NCBI GenBank assembly: GCA_019746425.1
Contig: JAIERY010000282.1
Coordinates: forward strand, 1-36,613
Reading direction: 5' to 3'
Length of the DNA stretch: 36,613 nt
Source of the DNA: Cytophagaceae bacterium
GTDB lineage: Bacteria > Bacteroidota > Bacteroidia > Cytophagales > Cytophagaceae
Made by a program: the position numbers and the translations under genes. The notes under the pieces were generated by a model. The model was not told where the DNA came from. It saw only the letters and a program-made list of their open reading frames with translations, and did not search any database. Position 1 is the stretch's first letter, and each line of letters starts with the position of its first letter. Below are positions 18,232 through 33,068 of the stretch, one piece after another.

Positions 18232-18331
18232 CCTTACGTATTGATTCCTGACCAGGATATATATTCTTCGTAGAACAATATTTTAAAGGCTATTGCTTTT
18301 ATTTATAAATTGCAGGGTATTCAAGCAGTTT

Positions 18332-19396
18332 ATGAATAAGACATTCAAAGTAGTTTTGTGGCTGATTATTGTGGGAGGAATTATAGTCCTTTTAGCCCTG
18401 CCTAAAATCCGTCAATCCGAAAAAAAACAATCTTCACCCCAAGGCGCTGCCAATGAAGAGCTTCCTGTTAATATTTTAATTGCAAGATCTGCTCCGTTGG
18501 AAATGGAGTTAAAAGCTTCCGGAACTATACTGGCTAATGAAGAGGTAGAACTTAAAACGGAAGCCAGCGGCAAAGTGACCGGCGTATATTTTAAAGAAGG
18601 ATCTGTAATACCTAAAGGAAAGCTGCTGGTAAAAATCAATGACTCCGAATTGCAGGCTCAATACCAAAGAGCAGAACACAGGATACAACTAAGCCAGGAG
18701 AATGAAAGAAGATCAAAAATTCTTTTGGAGAAAGGCGGTATCAGTCAGGCAGAATATGATGCGGTAATCAATGAATTAAATATCTTAAAATCAGAGCGTG
18801 CCTTAATAAGCGCACAAATCGCTAAAACGGAAATCACCGCTCCTTTCTCCGGCACGATCGGATTGAAAAATATTAGCGAAGGAAGCTATGTTTCTCCTTC
18901 AGTTACAGTTGCTACGCTCCAGGACATCAGTAAAATCAAAATCGAATTCAGCATTCCTGAAAAATATGTAGCAAGAGTAAGAGCGGGAAACAAAATTGTC
19001 TTTGATGTAGAAGGAATAGGTAAAAATTTTTCGGGAGAAATTTATGCCATCGATCCTAAGATTGATCCCCTTACCCGTACAGTGCAGATCCGTGCTATAG
19101 CGGTAAATCCCCGAAGCAACATTTTCCCGGGAGCCTTTGCCAGTATTACTTTGGTCTTTGATAAAATCCCTGATGCGATCCTGGTTCCCAGTGAAGTAGT
19201 GATTCCGGATATGAAGGGGTATAAAATTTATTTATATAAATCAGGTAAGGCCGAAATGGCAAAAGTGGAATTAGGAATAAGAAAAGAAAAAGAAGTGCAG
19301 ATAGTGCAGGGACTTGCATCAGGCGATACCATTATTACTACAGGTATTTTACAACTGAAGCCCGGCAAGAGGGTCAAAATTAAAACAGGGAATTAA
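18332..19396 (+). CDS. RND efflux periplasmic adaptor (membrane fusion protein)
   Basis: LKASGTILANEEVELKTEASGKVTGVYFKEGSVIPKGKLLVKIND, ITAPFSGTIGLKNISEGSYVSP; start at MNKTFKVVLWLI within ORF 18293-19396. Confidence 0.92.
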   Translation: MNKTFKVVLWLIIVGGIIVLLALPKIRQSEKKQSSPQGAANEELPVNILIARSAPLEMELKASGTILANEEVELKTEASGKVTGVYFKEGSVIPKGKLLVKINDSELQAQYQRAEHRIQLSQENERRSKILLEKGGISQAEYDAVINELNILKSERALISAQIAKTEITAPFSGTIGLKNISEGSYVSPSVTVATLQDISKIKIEFSIPEKYVARVRAGNKIVFDVEGIGKNFSGEIYAIDPKIDPLTRTVQIRAIAVNPRSNIFPGAFASITLVFDKIPDAILVPSEVVIPDMKGYKIYLYKSGKAEMAKVELGIRKEKEVQIVQGLASGDTIITTGILQLKPGKRVKIKTGN

Positions 19397-19401
19397 GGCT
19401 A

Positions 19402-22400
19402 ATGAGATTATCTTCAGTAAGCATCAACAAGCCTGTTCTGGCGATTGTATTTTCCCTTGTGATACTTTTATTCGGGATAGTAGGATTTCTGTTTCTCGGA
19501 ATCAGAGAATATCCTGCTGTTGACCCTCCTGTAATCACCGTTACTACTACTTACCCCGGTGCGAATGCTGCTGTAATGGAATCGCAGGTTACCGAACCTA
19601 TTGAAGAAAGGCTTACCGGAATAGAGGGCATTAAAGAAATCACTTCTACCAGCCGCGAACAGGTAAGTATTATAAGAGTGGAATTTAATGTGGATGTAGA
19701 ACTGGAAGCTGCGGCCAATGATGTGCGTGACAAAGTTTCCATTGCCAGAAGACAGCTTCCCGCTGATGTAGAAAATCCTGTAGTGGAAAAATCCGATGCA
19801 GATGCACAGCCTATTATTTTTATGACTGTTTCCAGTGAAAAAAGAAATTCCCTGGAGCTTAGTGAAATTGCATCTACTACCATCAGAGAAAAAATCCAAA
19901 CTATAGAAGGAGTAAGCCGGGTAAATGTTTTCGGGGAGAAAAAATTTGCGATGAGGCTTTGGTTTGATCCGGCTAAAATGGCTGCCACCAATGTTACGCC
20001 GCAGGATGTTCTTTCTGCCTTAAATAAAGAAAACGTAGAACTTCCTTCCGGAAGAATAGAAGGAGAGAGCACCGAACTTACCGTAAAAACTTCCGGCCTT
20101 CTGGAAAATGAAGAAGATTTTAATAACCTGCTGATCAAACAGGAAGGAAATAAATCTATAAAATTTCGTGATATCGGTTATGCAGAGCTAGGCGCGGAAA
20201 ATCCTCGTACGGGTTTAAAGAGGAGAGGGGAGCCCATGGTAGGAGTTTCTGTAAACCCACAGCCGGGCGCTAATGCAGTAGATATAGCAGATGAGTTTTA
20301 TAAAAGACTGGAACAATTGAAAAGTGAGGTTCCTTCCGATGTGAAAATTGAAATTGGTTATGACTTTACTACATATGTAAGGAAGGCAATCACCGAAGTA
20401 GAAGAGACCTTATTTATTGCATTCGGATTGGTAGTGCTTATCATTTTTATTTTTCTTCGTGACTGGCGATCTACACTTATTCCGGTTGTAGCGATTCCTG
20501 TTTCCATTATCTCTGCATTTTTCATTATGTACCTGGCAGGATTTTCCATCAACATCCTGACCTTAATGGCAATAGTGCTGGCCATCGGACTGGTATGCGA
20601 TGATGCTATCATTGTGCTGGAAAATATTTATAAAAAAATTGAAGAAGGAGAAGAAGTAAAGGAGGCAGCGCATAAAGGTTCTGCAGAAATTTATTTTGCT
20701 ATTATCTCTACTACTATTACTCTCGCAGCAGTTTTTCTCCCGGTTGTTTTCCTTCAGGGTTTGACCGGAAGATTATTCAGAGAATTCGGAATTGTAATCG
20801 CAGGATCAGTGTTGGTCTCTGCCTTCGTTGCTTTGACCTTGAGTCCGATGATGAGCGCTTTTCTTTTAAAGAAAGGTGATAAAAGAAATTGGCTATATCG
20901 CAAGACCGAACCTTGGTTTGAAAGATTGAATAAAGGATATGAAAATTCACTGAGCAGCTTTATGAAAATGCGCTGGCTCAGTTGGATTATTATTATTGTG
21001 TGCGGAATTCTGATTTATGTTTTTTTAAATGTAGTTCCGAAAGAGCTTGCTCCTCTGGAAGACAGATCCAATATCAGAATTTCTGCTACTGCTCCGGAAG
21101 GCGCCTCCTTCGAATACATGGAGAAACATATGGATCTGATTACCGAATTAGCCATCAGCAAAATTCCGGAAATTAAAACGCCTATCACTATTACGGCTCC
21201 AAGCTTTGGAGCTATCGGTGCAGTGAACAGCGGTACTTTAAATTTATATATTACCGAACCCGATCAGCGGGAAAGATCACAGCAGGAAATATTCGAACAG
21301 ATTTCTAAAGATATTAAAGAAGTTACTTCAGTTAGAGTGAATGCTGTGCAGCCTCCTACCATTGGCAGCAGGTTCGGCGGACAGCCATTGCAATATGTAT
21401 TGCTTGCCCCCAGCTTTGACTCGCTGAAAAAGTTTTTGCCATTATTTATGGAAGAAGCCAGAAAAATTCCCGGACTTACTTTTGTTGACAGTGATCTGAA
21501 ATTTAACAAACCTGAAATTTTTATTACAATCGATAGAGCTAAAGCGGCAGAGATGGGCGTGTTTGTGGAAGACATTGCCCGTACTTTACAACTGGCATAC
21601 AGCGGACAGAGATTGGGATATTTCATCAGGAATGGGAAGCAATACCAGATTATAGGGCAAGTGAAAAGAGAAGACCGTGATGATCCGCAGGATTTGAAAA
21701 ATTTATATGTGCGGGGTAAAAACGGACAAATGGTAGCGCTCGATAATTTTGTAAATATGGAAGAGCAGGCAAATCCTACGGCGCGTTTCCGCTATAACAG
21801 GTATGCCTCTGCTACTATCAATGCGGGTTTGAATAAAGGCTATAGTCTGGGAGAAGGTATAGATGCGATGAACAGTGTAAAGGAAAAAGTATTACCAGAT
21901 TATATTTTAACTAGATTGTCAGGACAAGCAAAAGATTTTACAGAAAGCTCTTCGAGCTTATTGCTGGCATTTTCTCTTGCACTGGTTTTAATTTATCTGG
22001 TGCTTGCCGCGCAATTTGAAAGCTTCACAGATCCTTTGATTATTTTAATAACTGTACCGCTGGCTATGGCTGGAGCCTTGCTTGCGCTGTGGTATTTTAA
22101 TTTTACATTTAATATTTTCAGTCAGATCGGGATCATCATGCTGGTTGGATTAGTTACTAAAAACGGAATTTTAATTGTGGAATTTGCCAATCAAAGAAAG
22201 AGAGAAGGAATGGAAAAAGTAAATGCGGTGATTGATGCTTCTGTGCACAGGCTAAGGCCGATCTTAATGACAAACCTTGCTACAGTGTTTGGTATTTTGC
22301 CAATCGCTTTATCACTTGGCGCTTCTGCCGGAAGCCGCCAGTCGCTGGGCGTTGCAGTAGTGGCAGGATTAATTTTTTCAGGCTTGCTTACTTTATATGT

Positions 22401-22452
22401 TATTCCGGGGATTTATACTTTCATGTCAGGAAACAGAAAAAATGTTGCGTAA
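19402..22452 (+). CDS. RND efflux permease (AcrB/HAE1-like)
   Basis: 1016 aa; EYPAVDPPVITVTTTYPGANAAVMESQVTEPIEE, DDAIIVLENIYK, GLVTKNGILIVEFANQ. Confidence 0.95.
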   Translation: MRLSSVSINKPVLAIVFSLVILLFGIVGFLFLGIREYPAVDPPVITVTTTYPGANAAVMESQVTEPIEERLTGIEGIKEITSTSREQVSIIRVEFNVDVELEAAANDVRDKVSIARRQLPADVENPVVEKSDADAQPIIFMTVSSEKRNSLELSEIASTTIREKIQTIEGVSRVNVFGEKKFAMRLWFDPAKMAATNVTPQDVLSALNKENVELPSGRIEGESTELTVKTSGLLENEEDFNNLLIKQEGNKSIKFRDIGYAELGAENPRTGLKRRGEPMVGVSVNPQPGANAVDIADEFYKRLEQLKSEVPSDVKIEIGYDFTTYVRKAITEVEETLFIAFGLVVLIIFIFLRDWRSTLIPVVAIPVSIISAFFIMYLAGFSINILTLMAIVLAIGLVCDDAIIVLENIYKKIEEGEEVKEAAHKGSAEIYFAIISTTITLAAVFLPVVFLQGLTGRLFREFGIVIAGSVLVSAFVALTLSPMMSAFLLKKGDKRNWLYRKTEPWFERLNKGYENSLSSFMKMRWLSWIIIIVCGILIYVFLNVVPKELAPLEDRSNIRISATAPEGASFEYMEKHMDLITELAISKIPEIKTPITITAPSFGAIGAVNSGTLNLYITEPDQRERSQQEIFEQISKDIKEVTSVRVNAVQPPTIGSRFGGQPLQYVLLAPSFDSLKKFLPLFMEEARKIPGLTFVDSDLKFNKPEIFITIDRAKAAEMGVFVEDIARTLQLAYSGQRLGYFIRNGKQYQIIGQVKREDRDDPQDLKNLYVRGKNGQMVALDNFVNMEEQANPTARFRYNRYASATINAGLNKGYSLGEGIDAMNSVKEKVLPDYILTRLSGQAKDFTESSSSLLLAFSLALVLIYLVLAAQFESFTDPLIILITVPLAMAGALLALWYFNFTFNIFSQIGIIMLVGLVTKNGILIVEFANQRKREGMEKVNAVIDASVHRLRPILMTNLATVFGILPIALSLGASAGSRQSLGVAVVAGLIFSGLLTLYVIPGIYTFMSGNRKNVA

Positions 22453-23752
22453 AAAAATATATCTGCAGATTATTTTAATTTTCTTCACCTTCAAAGGTTT
22501 TGCTCAGGATACATTGAGCTTATCAAGAGCAGTTCGGGCGAGTCTTGCGAATAACTATGACATCATCATTTCAGGCTACGATCAAAAGATTGCACAGAAT
22601 AATAATTCCTGGGGGAATGCAGGGCGATATCCTTCTGTTGTATTCAATGCGGCGCAAACCAACTCGTGGGCAAATATCAATACACCGGGTTCGTTTCTTG
22701 CCGGACAAATTGAGCGTCATGGAGTAGCGGGAAATATTGACCTTGCATGGGTTTTATTTGATGGCTTTAAAGTAAATATCAATAAAAGAAGATTTGAAAA
22801 ATTAGAACAGCTCAGTAATGGCAATGCAGCAGTAATAGTAGAAGGCACTGTCCAATCTGTAGTGCTTGGATATTACCAGGTATTATTGGAAAGAGAAAGA
22901 TTGAATGTGTATGAAAAAATATTAAAGCTGTCAAAAGACAAATATGAACTGGCGAAGCTTAAGAAAGATATCGGCACAGCCAGTGAATTTGATCTGCTGC
23001 AGGCACGCAATGATTATTTAAGCGATTCTACCAACTACTTATACTCCAGGTTAAATTTTCAGAATGCCGTAAGGAATCTGAATTTGCTGATGGCGGTAGA
23101 TTCTGAAAAGAACTATTCATTCAATGACCAATTGAATTTTTCAGGAATTGATTTTGTAAGGGATACTTTGTATGCGAAGATGATCAGCAACAATCAGACT
23201 TTAAGAAATCAGTATATCAACCAGGCGATCTTAAGGGAGAATGTAAAATTCCAAAGAAGTAATTTGTTTCCGCGCATTTCTATTAATACAGGTATGAATG
23301 CAGGCTTAACTTATCTTGACCGGGAAGGACAGCCTGTGCGTACGGGAGATTCGTATGATTTTTATGCCAACCTTTCTTTGAGCTATACCTTATTCAATGG
23401 AGGAAGAATAAAAAGAGGAATTGAAAATGCTGAGCTGGAAGCGGAAATGGACAGCGTGGGTATCCAGCAGCAGATTTTCCTGATGAAGAATCAGCTTGCG
23501 TCGTTTTATGATCTGTATAATATCCGCAGAAATATTTTTGCGCTGAGCGAAGAGAATTTAAAAACGGCAGAAGCAGAATTAAGTCTGGCAGAGACAAAAT
23601 ACCGAACCGGCAATTTTTCCGCCTTTGATTACCGACAGGTGCAGCTGAGTTATCTGAATGTGGCTCTGCAAAGATATCAATTGATCTATGATCTGATTGA
23701 TGTGCATACTTCTCTGGCGAGGATTACCGGTGGGATTTTGGATATGAGATGA
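22442..23752 (+). CDS. TolC-family outer membrane efflux protein
   Basis: Signal peptide MLRKKIYLQIILIFFTFKGFAQD; TolC-like repeat coiled-coils; start overlaps the end of the RND permease gene. Confidence 0.9.
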   Translation: MLRKKIYLQIILIFFTFKGFAQDTLSLSRAVRASLANNYDIIISGYDQKIAQNNNSWGNAGRYPSVVFNAAQTNSWANINTPGSFLAGQIERHGVAGNIDLAWVLFDGFKVNINKRRFEKLEQLSNGNAAVIVEGTVQSVVLGYYQVLLERERLNVYEKILKLSKDKYELAKLKKDIGTASEFDLLQARNDYLSDSTNYLYSRLNFQNAVRNLNLLMAVDSEKNYSFNDQLNFSGIDFVRDTLYAKMISNNQTLRNQYINQAILRENVKFQRSNLFPRISINTGMNAGLTYLDREGQPVRTGDSYDFYANLSLSYTLFNGGRIKRGIENAELEAEMDSVGIQQQIFLMKNQLASFYDLYNIRRNIFALSEENLKTAEAELSLAETKYRTGNFSAFDYRQVQLSYLNVALQRYQLIYDLIDVHTSLARITGGILDMR

Positions 23753-24548: not shown

Positions 24549-24576
24549 GTCAGACGACTCAGAGTCGTCAGAAGAG
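24549..24576. repeat. Palindrome GACGACTCAGAGTCGTC
   Basis: GACGACTC-A-GAGTCGTC within TACTCGTCA...AGAAGAGTA. Confidence 0.6.
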
Positions 24577-24592
24577 TAGTACCCGGTACAAT

Positions 24593-24622
24593 AAAAAACC
24601 CGCTCTTTTCAGAAACGGGTTC
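24593..24622 (-). terminator. Terminator for the REC-domain gene
   Basis: Minus reading AACCCGTTTCTGAAAAGAGCGGGTTTTTTAT. Confidence 0.75.
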
Positions 24623-24646
24623 CGTGTTCACTTAAATTAATAGGGA

Positions 24647-25150
24647 TTATTTAGTGAGATAATATACAAAGAAGCCTATAATGCCGGCGATCATTAATAT
24701 CATTACCATTAAGGCAGTTCTGGATCTTTTGCTGCTGGAACGTAACTTCACATTTTCCGCATGCAATTTTTTTCTTGTAATAAATGCCTTCAGAGAATAT
24801 ACAATTTTATCTACTGCACTCCTGTCTTTATAAATGTAATCGTAAGCCCCTGCATGCTTAACTGAATCTACCATTTTGGTATCGGTATTACTGGAAAGAA
24901 CTATTACTTCAGTACCCGGACTTTTACGTTTTACCGCTTTTAAAGTGTCTACCAGGTTTTCATTGGTGTATTGCTGATCAACAATAATGACGTCGAGGTC
25001 TTTATAGAGGCCCAGGTCTTTTAACAGACCTTTGCCATTTTTATGGATTTTTACATCCTGCTTAAATTCTTCTTTGATTTTTTGAGTTAGCAGTACAGAG
25101 CTCATTTCGTCTTCTACTACAAGAATATCCAATACAGGGTCGGTGATCAT
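24647..25150 (-). CDS. Response regulator receiver domain with C-terminal transmembrane helix
   Basis: DPVLDILVVEDEMSSVLLTQKI...DLDVIIVDQQYTNE...VIVLSSNTD...IYKDRS; ends TALMVMILMIAGIIGFFVYYLTK. Start placed at MITDPVLD. Confidence 0.8.
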   Translation of the reverse strand: MITDPVLDILVVEDEMSSVLLTQKIKEEFKQDVKIHKNGKGLLKDLGLYKDLDVIIVDQQYTNENLVDTLKAVKRKSPGTEVIVLSSNTDTKMVDSVKHAGAYDYIYKDRSAVDKIVYSLKAFITRKKLHAENVKLRSSSKRSRTALMVMILMIAGIIGFFVYYLTK

Positions 25151-25267
25151 AAAGTGCTTATTTGATTCCTGTAGATAATTGTTCTTTGTTAAGAAATGTT
25201 TAAAATATTTATTTCCGCTTAACAAATTTTTCCCCGCACATGTTATATATCTAAATCCAACTTACAT

Positions 25268-25561
25268 ATGACGAAACTTAAACTAGTATTATATACATTC
25301 TTTATGGTATTTTCCACAATCAGTGTGTATGCTGCATCCCCTGCAGAAGCAAGTCCGCTTACAAGCTCTTTATTTGTTTTTATTCCAACAGCCCTATTGG
25401 CGGTTTTGGCAGGAATGCTTATCTGGAAATTCAGAGAAAGAAAGAAAAAAGACAATGTGATACATTTCAACAACCGCGGACCGGTTAGAAAAACCATTAT
25501 TGGATATAAAAGAAGAAAAGCTTTACACGGATACGTGAAAGCTCATGAAGTAATACTATAA
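25268..25561 (+). CDS. Small membrane protein, hypothetical
   Basis: 97 aa with signal/TM and basic tail; promoter region shared with the divergent REC gene. Confidence 0.6.
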   Translation: MTKLKLVLYTFFMVFSTISVYAASPAEASPLTSSLFVFIPTALLAVLAGMLIWKFRERKKKDNVIHFNNRGPVRKTIIGYKRRKALHGYVKAHEVIL

Positions 25562-25570
25562 TCTTCTTTG

Positions 25571-25744
25571 TTACATATCCCTTCTCGGGGTGTTTTTCAG
25601 CAATTGAAAAAGAAAAGGCGTGGCAATAAGTGTTATAAGAATAATGATGATACCTTCACCTATTGATACAAGTTTTGTAGTCATTCCTACAATACCCATT
25701 GCCAATATTATTAATATTCCGAAGGTTAAGTGAATTCTGCTCAT
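25571..25744 (-). CDS. Small membrane protein, hypothetical (possibly 25571-25840)
   Basis: MSRIHLTFGILIILAMGIVGM...LLKNTPRRDM; the longer ORF overlaps the methyltransferase 3' end. Confidence 0.5.
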   Translation of the reverse strand: MSRIHLTFGILIILAMGIVGMTTKLVSIGEGIIIILITLIATPFLFQLLKNTPRRDM

Positions 25745-25797
25745 GGTATTTATGATTGGTTTGATAAATAACCATGAGCGATTTGATTTGTTGGGAA

Positions 25798-26508
25798 TTA
25801 TATCCAGAGTATTATCTGAAATCGGAAGGCCCATTTCCATTCGATTGTATACCTGCTGAATCCTGTGTCCTGTATTATTTTTTTTAGTTCGTCTTTAGTA
25901 AATCCCCGTAGTACCGAAAGTTTTGCATCATTTTTCACCATTGCCGATTTTGAGAACAGCTGAGTTAGAAATTTTATAGAATGATAAGCCAGCCAGTGGC
26001 GATGAAGGTCATTGATGATCACCGCATGCCTGCATTGCTTTCTCAACTGGCTTAATAAATCAGTGAGTTCCTGGTTGGTAAAATGGTGACAGAATAGGGT
26101 ACAGTTGACTATATCAAATTTTTCATTTTTAAATTTCTCCGAAAATACATTGGCATCTATATATTTTATTTCAGGAAATTTTTCTGAATGCTTTTTGGCA
26201 TAATCAATTATAAATGGATTGGCATCTACTCCGGTTAACTCAACTTTGTAATTTTCTCTCCGCGCTTTTTTAGCAATAAGCTTAAGCATGTCCCCGCTGC
26301 CACAGCCCAGATCACTGATATGGAGAGGCTTGGTTAAATTTTCTCCATCAATCTGTTGTACACATTTTTTTAAGGCCCCCAGTGTAACATTATTTCCGCC
26401 TAACCATTCATTGATAAACTCCAGCTCCCTGAGCGTTTGGACAACCACTTCTCCTTTGCAGTCGAGATCATCCATGATCTCTGTAGTTGTGGATCTGTTT
26501 CGGAACAT
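25798..26508 (-). CDS. SAM-dependent methyltransferase
   Basis: LHISDLGCGSGDMLKLIAKKAR (motif I), ELTGVDANPFIIDYAKKHS, FDIVNCTLFCHHF. Confidence 0.85.
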   Translation of the reverse strand: MFRNRSTTTEIMDDLDCKGEVVVQTLRELEFINEWLGGNNVTLGALKKCVQQIDGENLTKPLHISDLGCGSGDMLKLIAKKARRENYKVELTGVDANPFIIDYAKKHSEKFPEIKYIDANVFSEKFKNEKFDIVNCTLFCHHFTNQELTDLLSQLRKQCRHAVIINDLHRHWLAYHSIKFLTQLFSKSAMVKNDAKLSVLRGFTKDELKKIIQDTGFSRYTIEWKWAFRFQIILWI

Positions 26509-26518
26509 AATAATGAGT

Positions 26519-27679
26519 TTAAAGTGCGATTTCTTTTTCTTCAGCAGAAGCAAATTTCTTTTCCGGTTTTTCCGGGCAGTTCACTTTCAGCAGCATCGAT
26601 TCCAGTGTGAGCCCGGGACCGAAAGCAAAACCTAAAATATTTTTTTGATGATCTTCCTGCTTCAGCGCTTTTAAAATATAATAAAGTACAAATAAGACTG
26701 TGGGGGAAGACATATTGCCGTAGTTCTTCAATACCTCGTAAGCATATTTATTTTTTTCTTTTGGCAATTGCAATTCTTCTTCTATCACTTCTAAAATTCT
26801 TTTCCCGCCGGGATGAATGGCGTAAAGGTCTATGTCCTGCGGATCAAGCTGAATATTATTTAACAAATTTTTTGTCAGCTTTTTTATCCCTCCTTTGATC
26901 ATGTCGGGAATATAAGATGAAAGTGTCATTTCAAATCCAAAATCAGAAATGTGCCAGGCCATATCATTTCTTCCTTCTATCGCTATATCGCAGAAAAAAG
27001 ATTCAAGACTCAGAGAAGGCTGCGCGGCAGGTTTGTTTCCCTGCATCATCACTGCTGCCGCTCCATCTCCGAAAATTGCATTGGACAGCAGGTGATCCCA
27101 GTTTTTATTTTTCTGATAATGTATCGTGCACAACTCTACGCATACCACCAGTACTTTGGCATCGGTTCTGGCGCTACAGATGGCATTGGCAACCTTCAAT
27201 GCATTGAATGCTGCATAACATCCCATATAGTTGATGCATGTTCTTTCAATATTTTTTTTCAGTTGTAGCCTGTCCACTATTTCCAGGTCAATGCCCGGTG
27301 CATACATGCCCGTACAGCTTACAGTAATCAGGTGAGTAATATCTTTTTTATCAAAGGAAGAATCTTTCAGGCAATCATCAATGGCATCCAGCGCAAGCGG
27401 CAGAGCTTTTTTCTCAAATAGTTTCATTCTTTCGGATACAGAAGGAAAGGGTTCCATATCGGCAGTATTTGGAAAAAAGGTATAAGATCCTTTTTCTTTT
27501 CCGAAGTCCGGAATGACACTATATCTCTTTGTAATGCCCGAAGCTTTATATAAGGCGAATAGCCTTTTTCTTTCTTCGGCATTCATATTTACGGCATTGG
27601 CCATGAATGCGGCAATTTCCATTTGCGGGAAAGAATATTCAGGATTTGCAATTCCGATTGATGAGATGTAGGTTGCCAT
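26519..27679 (-). CDS. Type III polyketide synthase (chalcone/stilbene synthase-like)
   Basis: TVSCTGMYAPGID, YMGCYAAFNALKVA (catalytic Cys), AIHPGGKRILEVIEEEL (His), NYGNMSSPTVLFVL (Asn), GFAFGPGLTLESMLL. Confidence 0.92.
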   Translation of the reverse strand: MATYISSIGIANPEYSFPQMEIAAFMANAVNMNAEERKRLFALYKASGITKRYSVIPDFGKEKGSYTFFPNTADMEPFPSVSERMKLFEKKALPLALDAIDDCLKDSSFDKKDITHLITVSCTGMYAPGIDLEIVDRLQLKKNIERTCINYMGCYAAFNALKVANAICSARTDAKVLVVCVELCTIHYQKNKNWDHLLSNAIFGDGAAAVMMQGNKPAAQPSLSLESFFCDIAIEGRNDMAWHISDFGFEMTLSSYIPDMIKGGIKKLTKNLLNNIQLDPQDIDLYAIHPGGKRILEVIEEELQLPKEKNKYAYEVLKNYGNMSSPTVLFVLYYILKALKQEDHQKNILGFAFGPGLTLESMLLKVNCPEKPEKKFASAEEKEIAL

Positions 27680-27720
27680 AAAAAGTCTTAACAAAAAAAG
27701 AGCTAACTTGTTAGAAATCC

Positions 27721-28590
27721 ATGATTAAGAAAAGCACTATACTGCATCTAAGGATACCGTTTTCTCTGTATTTAATGCCCTTCTTTCTATTTGCAGCAAG
27801 CCAGGCTTCCCGGCCTAATTTAGTTTTTTTGGTATTATCCTTCTTTATTATTCATCTTTTTTTCTATCCGGCCAGCAATGCATACAATAGCTATTTTGAT
27901 AAGGACGAGGAAAGCATAGGCGGTTTGGAGAATCCGCCTCCGGTTGATAGAGAATTGTATGTCGTAAGTCTGGTATTTGATTTGATTGCCCTGGTGTTAA
28001 GTTTTATGATCAGCTGGCAGTTTGCGGTAATGATTTTTTTTATTGGTGTTGCTTCCAAGGCATATAGTCATCCTGCAGTTAGGCTGAAAAAATTTCCTGT
28101 GATCGGTTTACTGACAGTAGCTTTTTTTCAGGGGGCCTATACCTATTTAATGTCTTTTCATGCCATCGAAGAGATTGCTCTCGGCGAACTGTTTAATAAC
28201 CGTACTTTATCTGCGGCAGGATTATGTTCTTTAATGCTTTTTGGTTCTTATCCCATGACGCAGGTATATCAGCATCAGGAAGACGGAAGGAGAGGCGATA
28301 ATACTATGAGCAGGATGCTGGGAATAGAGGGAACGTTCCTGTGGACAGGCGGAATATTTTTTCTGGCTACGATGGGATTTGTCTATTATTTTATCTCTTA
28401 CTATTCATGGCAGCTCGCCCTCATATTTATGACCTTCCTTTTCCCAACACTGGTTTATTTTTTTCTTTGGTTTTTCAGAGTGAGAAAAAATAAGAAAGCA
28501 GCAGATTTTAAATCCACTATGAGGCTGAATGCTTTGTCTTCGCTGAGCTTTATAGCCTTTTTTGTTTTTTTGTTTTTTTATTCGAAGTGA
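27721..28590 (+). CDS. UbiA-family prenyltransferase
   Basis: NAYNSYFDKDEESIGG, YSHPAVRLKKFPVIG, QVYQHQEDGRRGDNTMSRMLG, multiple TM segments. Confidence 0.85.
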   Translation: MIKKSTILHLRIPFSLYLMPFFLFAASQASRPNLVFLVLSFFIIHLFFYPASNAYNSYFDKDEESIGGLENPPPVDRELYVVSLVFDLIALVLSFMISWQFAVMIFFIGVASKAYSHPAVRLKKFPVIGLLTVAFFQGAYTYLMSFHAIEEIALGELFNNRTLSAAGLCSLMLFGSYPMTQVYQHQEDGRRGDNTMSRMLGIEGTFLWTGGIFFLATMGFVYYFISYYSWQLALIFMTFLFPTLVYFFLWFFRVRKNKKAADFKSTMRLNALSSLSFIAFFVFLFFYSK

Positions 28591-30464: not shown

Positions 30465-33068
30465 TTATTCTGTCCTGATAATATTTTTCACAGATACACC
30501 ATTGCTGGTTAGCACGTGAATGATATATAATCCCGGACCGAAGTTTTGTCCTACCGTAACTTCTGCAGACTCGATAGTTCCGGTGTTAAATATTTCCTGT
30601 CCCTGCACATCGTATACTTTTACAGAAAGAATGCTTTCTCCATTCTGTGCAGTAATCGTTGTCTGGTCTTTGAACGGATGCGGAGCAGTTACGATAGCTG
30701 CCGCTTGCGGTGTTGCGCAGCCTCCGACCTGAACAGTTTTGTTGTATTGTTTATACCATGGAGTAACGCTGTAATTTGCTCCAACGCTTAAAGTATATGT
30801 GCCCGCTGCTGCATAGACTACAGTTGCTTTTTTTGTATCTGCATCAACTGTAACAGTTGCCTGTCCGGATGTCCACCAGCTTGCGCTTGAGAATGAGAAT
30901 TCAGGAGAGAAAGTGAATTGTACAGCCTGTCCTACGTTCACGCATGCCGGTCCATTGATACCTGCTGCCGTAGTGCTTGCTACTGTAACAGTGACCACAG
31001 AAGATGTTCCTGTCGCACCTGCATTGTCAGTGGCTACCGCTTTCAAACTGTAAGTTCCTGCTGCTGCATTGGCAATTACAAATGAATAAGGCGCAGAAAC
31101 ATCAGAGCCCAGTAAAGTAGAACCGTTGAAGAAATCAACTTTGCTTATTGTTCCGTCAGCATCGCTTGCTGTTGCATTGATAGTGATGCTGGTGCCTGGG
31201 GTAAATGTTTGTCCGTTTGTCGGAGAAGTTATAGATACTGTCGGCGCTGTATTTCCTGTCGGCACATAGACCTGTATGTTGATGGATGCAGAATTTCCGA
31301 TACCGCCTGCATTGTCAGTAGCTCTTGCAGTAACATTATAGGAACCTGCAGTTGATGTATTCCATGTAAACGAGTAAGGGGCTGAAAGATCTTCTCCGAG
31401 TTTTGTAGTGCCGTTGAAGAATTCGACTTTAGCAATGGTGCCATCAGCATCCGATGCAGTTGCATTGATCACAATGCTTGCAGGCGCTGAATAAGTAATT
31501 CCGTTTGGAGGAGAGGTAATGCTTACAGTTGGGTTCTGATTCGGAGTAGCAGATACAGGCACTGTGCCTGAAATGAAATATTCTCCTATGGAAGCATAAT
31601 CAGAGTAGCCATCTGTCGCCGGATTTTTATCTCCCACTCCATCCACATGCAGGTAATAAGTTCCTGCAGCAAGGTTGATGGATACTGAAGCGTTCAGCAC
31701 AGTGCCGGTAGGGCTGCTGGTTGCCAATACATTTCCAGCGTCATTGGTAAGATTGATCAGCACATCCAGGTCAGGATGTGTAGGGGATGGATTTACAGTT
31801 AAACTTACAGTACCTCCTGAAGTAGTAAATCTGTAAACATCTATATCTGTTCTTTGCGTAATGATTCCATAATTGGCAGTACCTGTTACTGATCCGTTGG
31901 AAGCAATTGTCAGAGCTTTGGCAGCAGCGATAGTGTTTCCTGCCTCATCTGCTCTATAAGTAATACCATGTTTAGCCTGGGTGATAAGTGCAAGATCATC
32001 TTCTGTATTGTTGGCAGAAGTATACTCGCCTCTGCTCCATTGTGCAAGCGTTTTGTAGTAACCTACTCCCATGATAGGAGCCCAGTTACCCTGTCCCTGA
32101 TAGTAACCTTCGCTTGGAGTGATTCTTCCATCATGGCTTAAGCCGAAAGTATGTCCTACTTCGTGAGAACCGGCTTCTCCCGCTCCTTTTACTCCGCTGT
32201 TAAACACCCAGCATGGTGTATTGTCTCCCCAACTGAATGAATTTAAGTAAGCAACTCCTCCTGCTGTGGGCGCAGCAGTTTTGGTTGGAGTGAATATGCA
32301 GCGCATTTTTCTGTTGGCTGGGGCAGCATTAAAGATAGCTTCATTGGTGGTGATGTTAAGATTGAATGGACGGAAATCTTCGCTGATCATTTTCCAGATC
32401 TCTGTGATTTCTGCCTCAGTCATGTTAGCTGGCTGTGCGTCGATGGGATTTCCTCCATTCCAACGTGTACCAGAAACATATTGGCCGTCAAAGTCAAGGT
32501 ATACTACTCCCACTGCACCCGGCAGACTCTGTAAATTATATACAGATGAGCTGGCAGGGGGTGCCTGCTCTGCGAGCGGCGTGGCACCATTTTCTATATT
32601 CATGTTGATACAGATCACATCATGAGCATCCACTTCTTTTACAAATACATTTCCCTGTGCATCGGAATAGTATTCATAGGCTTTCTCTTCGGAAGGGATC
32701 ACGGCTGTTCCTTCGAGCTTGCCGTTTTTAACAGTGAAGAATACATTGGATCCTGCGCTTCCTTTTACTTCTCCGATAATGGTTTCCGTTCCATTAGAAG
32801 AAGTGTTTACATTAATTACTGCGGAAAGAGGCGCTTCGCTGGTCGGAATGCTTTTCTCATTTCCTCCGCGTGCATTTTTAATAGTTACGCTTGAGTAAAA
32901 CTCTGAAACGGTTCCGAGTTTTACCGGCGTATGCCCTTCGTGGTCATGCTGTGCAAGTGCAGCAGATGAAAATGAAATTACCGCGGCGGCAGTAAAAACA
33001 TTTTTCATCAAAGAAGAGCACTGTTGTAAGAATTTTGTTTTCACATTCCTGTGTGCAAGTGTCATCAT
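30465..33068 (-). CDS. Secreted zinc metalloprotease with PPC domain, two Ig-like repeats and T9SS C-terminal sorting domain
   Basis: GSHEVGHTFGLSHDG (HExxHxxGLxHD); TDIDVYRFTTSGGTVSLTV...GTYYLHVDG (PPC-like); two PTVSITSP.NG repeats; C-term SILSVKVYDVQGQEIFNTG...GLYIIHVLTSNGVSVKNIIRTE. Confidence 0.88.
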   Translation of the reverse strand: MMTLAHRNVKTKFLQQCSSLMKNVFTAAAVISFSSAALAQHDHEGHTPVKLGTVSEFYSSVTIKNARGGNEKSIPTSEAPLSAVINVNTSSNGTETIIGEVKGSAGSNVFFTVKNGKLEGTAVIPSEEKAYEYYSDAQGNVFVKEVDAHDVICINMNIENGATPLAEQAPPASSSVYNLQSLPGAVGVVYLDFDGQYVSGTRWNGGNPIDAQPANMTEAEITEIWKMISEDFRPFNLNITTNEAIFNAAPANRKMRCIFTPTKTAAPTAGGVAYLNSFSWGDNTPCWVFNSGVKGAGEAGSHEVGHTFGLSHDGRITPSEGYYQGQGNWAPIMGVGYYKTLAQWSRGEYTSANNTEDDLALITQAKHGITYRADEAGNTIAAAKALTIASNGSVTGTANYGIITQRTDIDVYRFTTSGGTVSLTVNPSPTHPDLDVLINLTNDAGNVLATSSPTGTVLNASVSINLAAGTYYLHVDGVGDKNPATDGYSDYASIGEYFISGTVPVSATPNQNPTVSITSPPNGITYSAPASIVINATASDADGTIAKVEFFNGTTKLGEDLSAPYSFTWNTSTAGSYNVTARATDNAGGIGNSASINIQVYVPTGNTAPTVSITSPTNGQTFTPGTSITINATASDADGTISKVDFFNGSTLLGSDVSAPYSFVIANAAAGTYSLKAVATDNAGATGTSSVVTVTVASTTAAGINGPACVNVGQAVQFTFSPEFSFSSASWWTSGQATVTVDADTKKATVVYAAAGTYTLSVGANYSVTPWYKQYNKTVQVGGCATPQAAAIVTAPHPFKDQTTITAQNGESILSVKVYDVQGQEIFNTGTIESAEVTVGQNFGPGLYIIHVLTSNGVSVKNIIRTE

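Follow-up and report, generated by a model that had tools for sequence, protein, structure and literature searches.

The response regulators characterised so far mostly work on DNA, have enzymatic activity or diffuse freely, as CheY-like proteins do. A few described systems offer points of comparison for the protein considered here. In the exopolysaccharide synthesis of Myxococcus xanthus, the phosphorylated single-domain regulator EpsW activates the initiating transferase EpsZ post-translationally by direct contact (PMC12802240), having earlier been viewed as a relay intermediate (PMC4671073). In Bacteroidota, PorX, the response regulator of the type IX secretion system, has been reported to bind the PorL subunit (PMC5005315, PMC10951265). 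Membrane-anchored response regulators have been described in Methanoregula, as four archaeal proteins with the arrangement MetOD3-REC-MetOD2 (PMC5847659).

Here, we analysed a 36,613-nucleotide stretch of DNA (hereafter, the window) from a bacterium of the Cytophagaceae, which encodes a receiver (REC) domain ending in a transmembrane (TM) helix, hereafter REC-TM. Like EpsW, the window protein is a receiver without output domain, encoded by an orphan gene and carrying a phosphorylatable Asp (PMC4671073, PMC12802240). The likeness extends to the class to which it belongs, whose members also occur in Wzx/Wzy-type exopolysaccharide operons, and EpsW contacts an inner-membrane enzyme. However, the literature presents EpsW as a CheY-like protein with a single domain, whereas the window receiver is tethered by a TM tail and its target is only proposed. 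With PorX, a Bacteroidota response regulator reported to contact a subunit of the secretion machine, the resemblance is that of generic REC similarity alone; PorX differs in its large C-terminal part and in lacking a TM tail, and the window protein, at 22.7 bits, stays below the cut-off of 300 of the NCBIfam PorX equivalog. The Methanoregula proteins are likewise anchored, but their anchor lies in a separate 180-aa domain N-terminal to REC, which is then followed by MetOD2 (PMC5847659). The closest receivers in both sequence and fold, including an extended alpha5/linker, belong instead to NtrC-family sigma-54 regulators (Aquifex aeolicus NtrC1 and a Bacteroidota operon regulator), yet the window protein has a TM helix where their AAA+ and helix-turn-helix (HTH) domains would be.

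In titles and abstracts of the open-licence literature we came across no bacterial receiver described as having a C-terminal anchor, although absence is not thereby proven. Single-domain regulators are known, as is the differently built anchored regulator of Methanoregula; the C-terminal TM helix on a bacterial receiver appears to be the new element.

A predicted tail-anchored receiver domain

The REC-TM gene (24647..25150, minus strand), called from open reading frame, domain and TM evidence, runs from an ATG at 25150 to a stop codon ending at 24647 and encodes 167 aa. A TTG start at 25225, which would give 192 aa, is disfavoured, as the orthologue alignment begins at the ATG. Since an intrinsic terminator-like hairpin (24595..24623, minus strand; 11 pairs, then a T-rich tail) lies just past the stop codon and the downstream gene is convergent, REC-TM is probably transcribed singly. 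A 17-nt near-perfect palindrome, GACGACTCAGAGTCGTC, distinct from this hairpin, is found at 24551-24570, in the interval that separates REC-TM from the CAP-domain gene.

The original prediction had described a receiver-type domain followed by a short basic linker and a TM helix at the very C terminus, with no DNA-binding output, and our analysis bears out each of these elements. Response_reg is the sole Pfam domain above cut-off (24821..25126, minus strand; residues 9-110, 46 bits against a cut-off of 30.2), and the expected active-site positions are all filled, with an acidic pair (E13/D14), the phospho-acceptor D58, S86 and K108. Pfam and NCBIfam profiles detected no HTH, AAA+, Sigma-54 activator or other output domain in the window protein. 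It thus has the phosphorylatable Asp, acidic pair, Ser/Thr and Lys of a single-domain response regulator and no folded output domain, the receiver being followed by just a linker and one TM helix. It nonetheless departs from the soluble, REC-only form, owing to the strength of this predicted helix.

The linker (residues 126-146; 24713..24775, minus strand) contains 8 K/R and 1 D/E and is modelled as one helix with alpha5. Hydropathy and the orthologue alignment place the TM helix and the last residues at positions 147-167 (24650..24712, minus strand). The segment 147-165 has a mean Kyte-Doolittle value of 2.5 over 19 residues and a summed Hessa-2005 scale value of -2.7, compared with +15 for the best non-tail segment of the protein, and just two residues follow it. 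Of 20,000 composition shuffles, 185 matched this hydropathy anywhere in the protein, and fewer would be expected to do so at the C terminus. With a single TM helix no further than about 30 residues from the C terminus, no other TM segment and no signal peptide, the protein has the layout of a tail-anchored one. By the positive-inside rule, the charge of the linker predicts that the receiver lies on the inner side of the membrane, in keeping with the cytoplasmic N-terminal domain of such proteins.

AlphaFold2, given the single window sequence alone, returned a (beta-alpha)5 receiver fold (mean pLDDT 73, pTM 0.62), in which one continuous helix, residues 112-166, joins alpha5 to the membrane segment. 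The closest PDB relatives by sequence and by fold were NtrC1-type sigma-54 regulators, NtrC1 of Aquifex ranking first by both, and the sequence alignment to NtrC1 extends to residue 139, within the linker. In NtrC-type regulators the corresponding linker helix contributes to dimer formation. By sequence, by fold and within the limited resolution of a 127-column tree (see below), we assign the receiver to the NtrC lineage, although the AAA+ and HTH domains of that family are missing from the window protein.

Orthologues and the wider class

Full-length orthologues, TM helix included, are present in four genomes, each a different species and all from one other genus of the family, with 44-47% identity. 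In all four the TM helix occupies the same place and a C-terminal YY-x-T pattern is kept. No further strict orthologues were found beyond these two genera among 292 genomes of the order at 1e-15, and with just the window sequence as query, GTDB genome contigs yielded generic receivers alone. Among the four orthologues, dN/dS was 0.016-0.05 for the receiver and 0.05-0.17 for the linker plus TM helix. Both halves are under purifying selection, the tail being looser than the receiver, and the low values in the linker plus TM helix indicate that the tail is maintained as a protein.

When relatives were included in the search, we recovered 28 distinct short receivers that carry a TM helix at the C terminus, from 7 Bacteroidota families. 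They separate well by hydrophobicity: 28 of 85 distinct short receivers fall below +3.5, with just one further below +8. All 28 proteins have D58, K108 and either S or T at position 86, and 26 have D at position 14. A membrane-tethered single-domain regulator had been flagged as unusual; the architecture holds, but the protein is no singular oddity, since its class has 28 distinct representatives across 7 families. In the window's own genome the Response_reg profile finds 54 receiver domains, and the short receiver proteins retrieved there included no second one with a C-terminal TM helix. One REC-TM subgroup (L017, L027, L055 and L162) has a conserved short tail past the TM helix, G-x-I-[STN]-D-[NS], predicted to be periplasmic, which suggests a function outside the membrane; two of these four are encoded beside a CHASE3 hybrid kinase.

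A tree of 159 receiver domains was built on 127 columns and contains many weak forks. One clade (SH-aLRT 96) takes in all 26 TM-bearing rows, along with 29 NtrC-type sigma-54 regulator receivers and 21 short receivers; no TM helix occurs in the remaining 80. As the set was collected by similarity to the TM forms, sampling accounts for part of this clustering. Gain or loss of the helix has to be invoked at least twice when strongly supported branches are counted, and five times on the tree as drawn.

Genomic context

Gene clustering around 22 loci, with gene identities assigned by Pfam, defined an operon whose order is conserved with local changes: an NtrC-type regulator (Sigma54_activat plus REC), a kinase or HPt gene, a short receiver with or without TM helix, and then export genes. 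The latter comprise Poly_export/SLBB (Wza-like), GNVR (Wzc-like), a protein of ~420 aa without Pfam match that is flippase-like by position, a glycosyltransferase and Wzy_C. In 7 loci from 4 families the Wza-like gene directly follows REC-TM, and most of these loci also have NtrC-type regulator and kinase/HPt genes close by. REC-TM abuts a hybrid kinase gene in 3 further loci, and a REC-HPt protein in one genus; other class members are stand-alone genes, like that of the window. In one genome (G012, L147:17226-18876), a second REC-TM gene shares 8 nt with the end of a Glycos_transf_4 (WecA-type) gene, an overlap that suggests translational coupling to an initiating transferase and makes the two a candidate regulator/transferase pair.

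Several receivers in the same operon slot have no TM helix, so that the anchor is not required for that role everywhere. In three loci with such a TM-less short receiver (L153, L158 and L163), a gene for a FIST-domain protein, Pfam-tested in L153, separates the NtrC-type regulator gene from that of the hybrid kinase.

The window gene is not directly upstream of a Wza-like gene; its neighbours encode efflux components, a CAP-domain protein, a methyltransferase and a type III polyketide synthase, and no kinase, partner or initiating phosphoglycosyl transferase gene adjoins it at the locus. The original prediction had put forward as a possible partner the divergently encoded small membrane protein of 97 aa (25268..25561, plus strand), separated from REC-TM by a 117-bp intergenic region (25151..25267, delimited by sequence inspection). 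The co-occurrence check spoke against this pairing: the small gene is not conserved with REC-TM, and none of its relatives adjoins any REC-TM orthologue. Against the genomes of 59 relatives, the 97-aa protein gave three chance-level matches (E 2e-4 to 8e-4); all have stop codons in the reported frame, and none is taken for a homologous gene.

In the 4 species, the orthologue is preceded on its own strand by an AMP-binding (acyl-CoA synthetase-like) gene and followed by MBOAT and AlgX genes, an arrangement of the alginate O-acetylation type. These polysaccharide-type neighbours are conserved solely within that one genus. The window's genome has two Poly_export genes, on other contigs, and a close copy of the operon's NtrC-type regulator was not found in it (best match 38% identity, vs 62% in G006). 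With neither an adjoining partner or kinase nor a close copy of the operon regulator, the window protein is linked to polysaccharide by its class alone.

Proposed mechanism and alternatives

We favour, with a probability of roughly 0.45, a reading of REC-TM as a phospho-switched, membrane-tethered adaptor whose output is protein contact at the membrane, in the manner of EpsW, the targets of the class being envelope polysaccharide machinery. Structurally, alpha5 of an NtrC-lineage receiver would run through the basic linker into the single C-terminal anchor, which takes the place of the AAA+/DNA-binding output. Given the intact chemistry and the relatives encoded beside hybrid kinases and HPt domains, D58 is presumably phosphorylated by a histidine kinase or HPt phosphorelay encoded elsewhere. 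Phosphorylation would then alter the alpha4-beta5-alpha5 face of the membrane-held receiver, which may in turn bind or release an inner-membrane partner, so that the output would be a post-translational protein contact and not transcription. By analogy to soluble EpsW acting on EpsZ, the likeliest targets of the wider class would be the initiating transferase, the polymerase and the co-polymerase.

For the window protein itself, the O-acyltransferase/AlgX-like pair adjoining its orthologues makes surface polysaccharide modification the first candidate process. The extension to polysaccharide is weaker here than for the operon relatives, because its genome holds no close copy of the operon regulator and its neighbours are unrelated to polysaccharide. 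A bolder version would have sigma-54-related tethered receivers throughout Bacteroidota switch enzymes of polysaccharide initiation, modification or export at the inner membrane, one phosphorelay controlling both the genes of the operon, via the NtrC-type regulator, and its enzymes, via the tethered receiver, with the window protein as a stand-alone offshoot; this we consider doubtful.

Alternatively, REC-TM may have no effector target of its own and serve as a membrane-localised phosphate sink or negative adaptor, either competing for phosphate from membrane hybrid kinases or docking on a kinase and inhibiting it. The three REC-TM genes that directly abut hybrid kinase genes would fit this role, kinase-inhibiting single-domain regulators are known (reviewed in PMC12471899), and the anchor would position the receiver beside membrane kinases. 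On the other hand, conservation of many class members inside polysaccharide export operons, ahead of Wza-like genes, favours an effector, and no kinase gene adjoins the window gene; we judge such a role unlikely.

The HPt and REC-HPt genes that adjoin class members also accord with a membrane-held phosphorelay intermediate, which would pass phosphate between a hybrid kinase and an HPt domain or NtrC-type regulator, the anchor providing spatial insulation. EpsW was itself first proposed to be a relay intermediate (PMC4671073), but the later study found direct effector contact (PMC12802240), and the window gene is a singleton, which leaves this option rather improbable. A further proposal, that the TM helix and linker sense the state of the membrane and change receiver dimerisation or phosphorylation, draws on the continuous helix from alpha5 into the membrane in the AlphaFold2 model and on the subset of relatives with a conserved short tail past the TM helix. 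Since the window protein has almost nothing beyond its hydrophobic stretch, and no sensory domain, we give it little credence. Finally, the protein could be a relic without selected function, its output domain lost and its hydrophobic tail a chance acquisition. This would suit the narrow distribution of true orthologues (2 genera) but is hardly credible in view of the low dN/dS in receiver and tail, the intact active site and the 44-47% full-length identity between genera.

If REC-TM proteins are indeed tethered adaptors, a conserved membrane-anchored class would keep the phosphorylated signal at the membrane surface, and would suggest that Bacteroidota control envelope machinery directly and post-translationally. 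The EpsW/EpsZ pair provides a ready experimental template, and the idea is testable in cultivated species that have the operon form.

Other features of the window

Three further loci were noted in the window. A tripartite efflux operon at 18293-23752 encodes an HlyD-type adaptor, a 1016-aa RND-type pump and an outer-membrane-factor-like protein, the last two recognised by sequence inspection. The region 25571-28590 is likely a small biosynthetic cluster, with genes for a SAM methyltransferase and a type III polyketide synthase (chalcone/stilbene synthase family), and a UbiA prenyltransferase gene on the opposite strand. Lastly, 30465-33068 encodes a secreted protein of 867 aa that has Big_7 repeats, a type IX secretion sorting tail and, by inspection, a metalloprotease-like motif, HEVGHTFGLSH.
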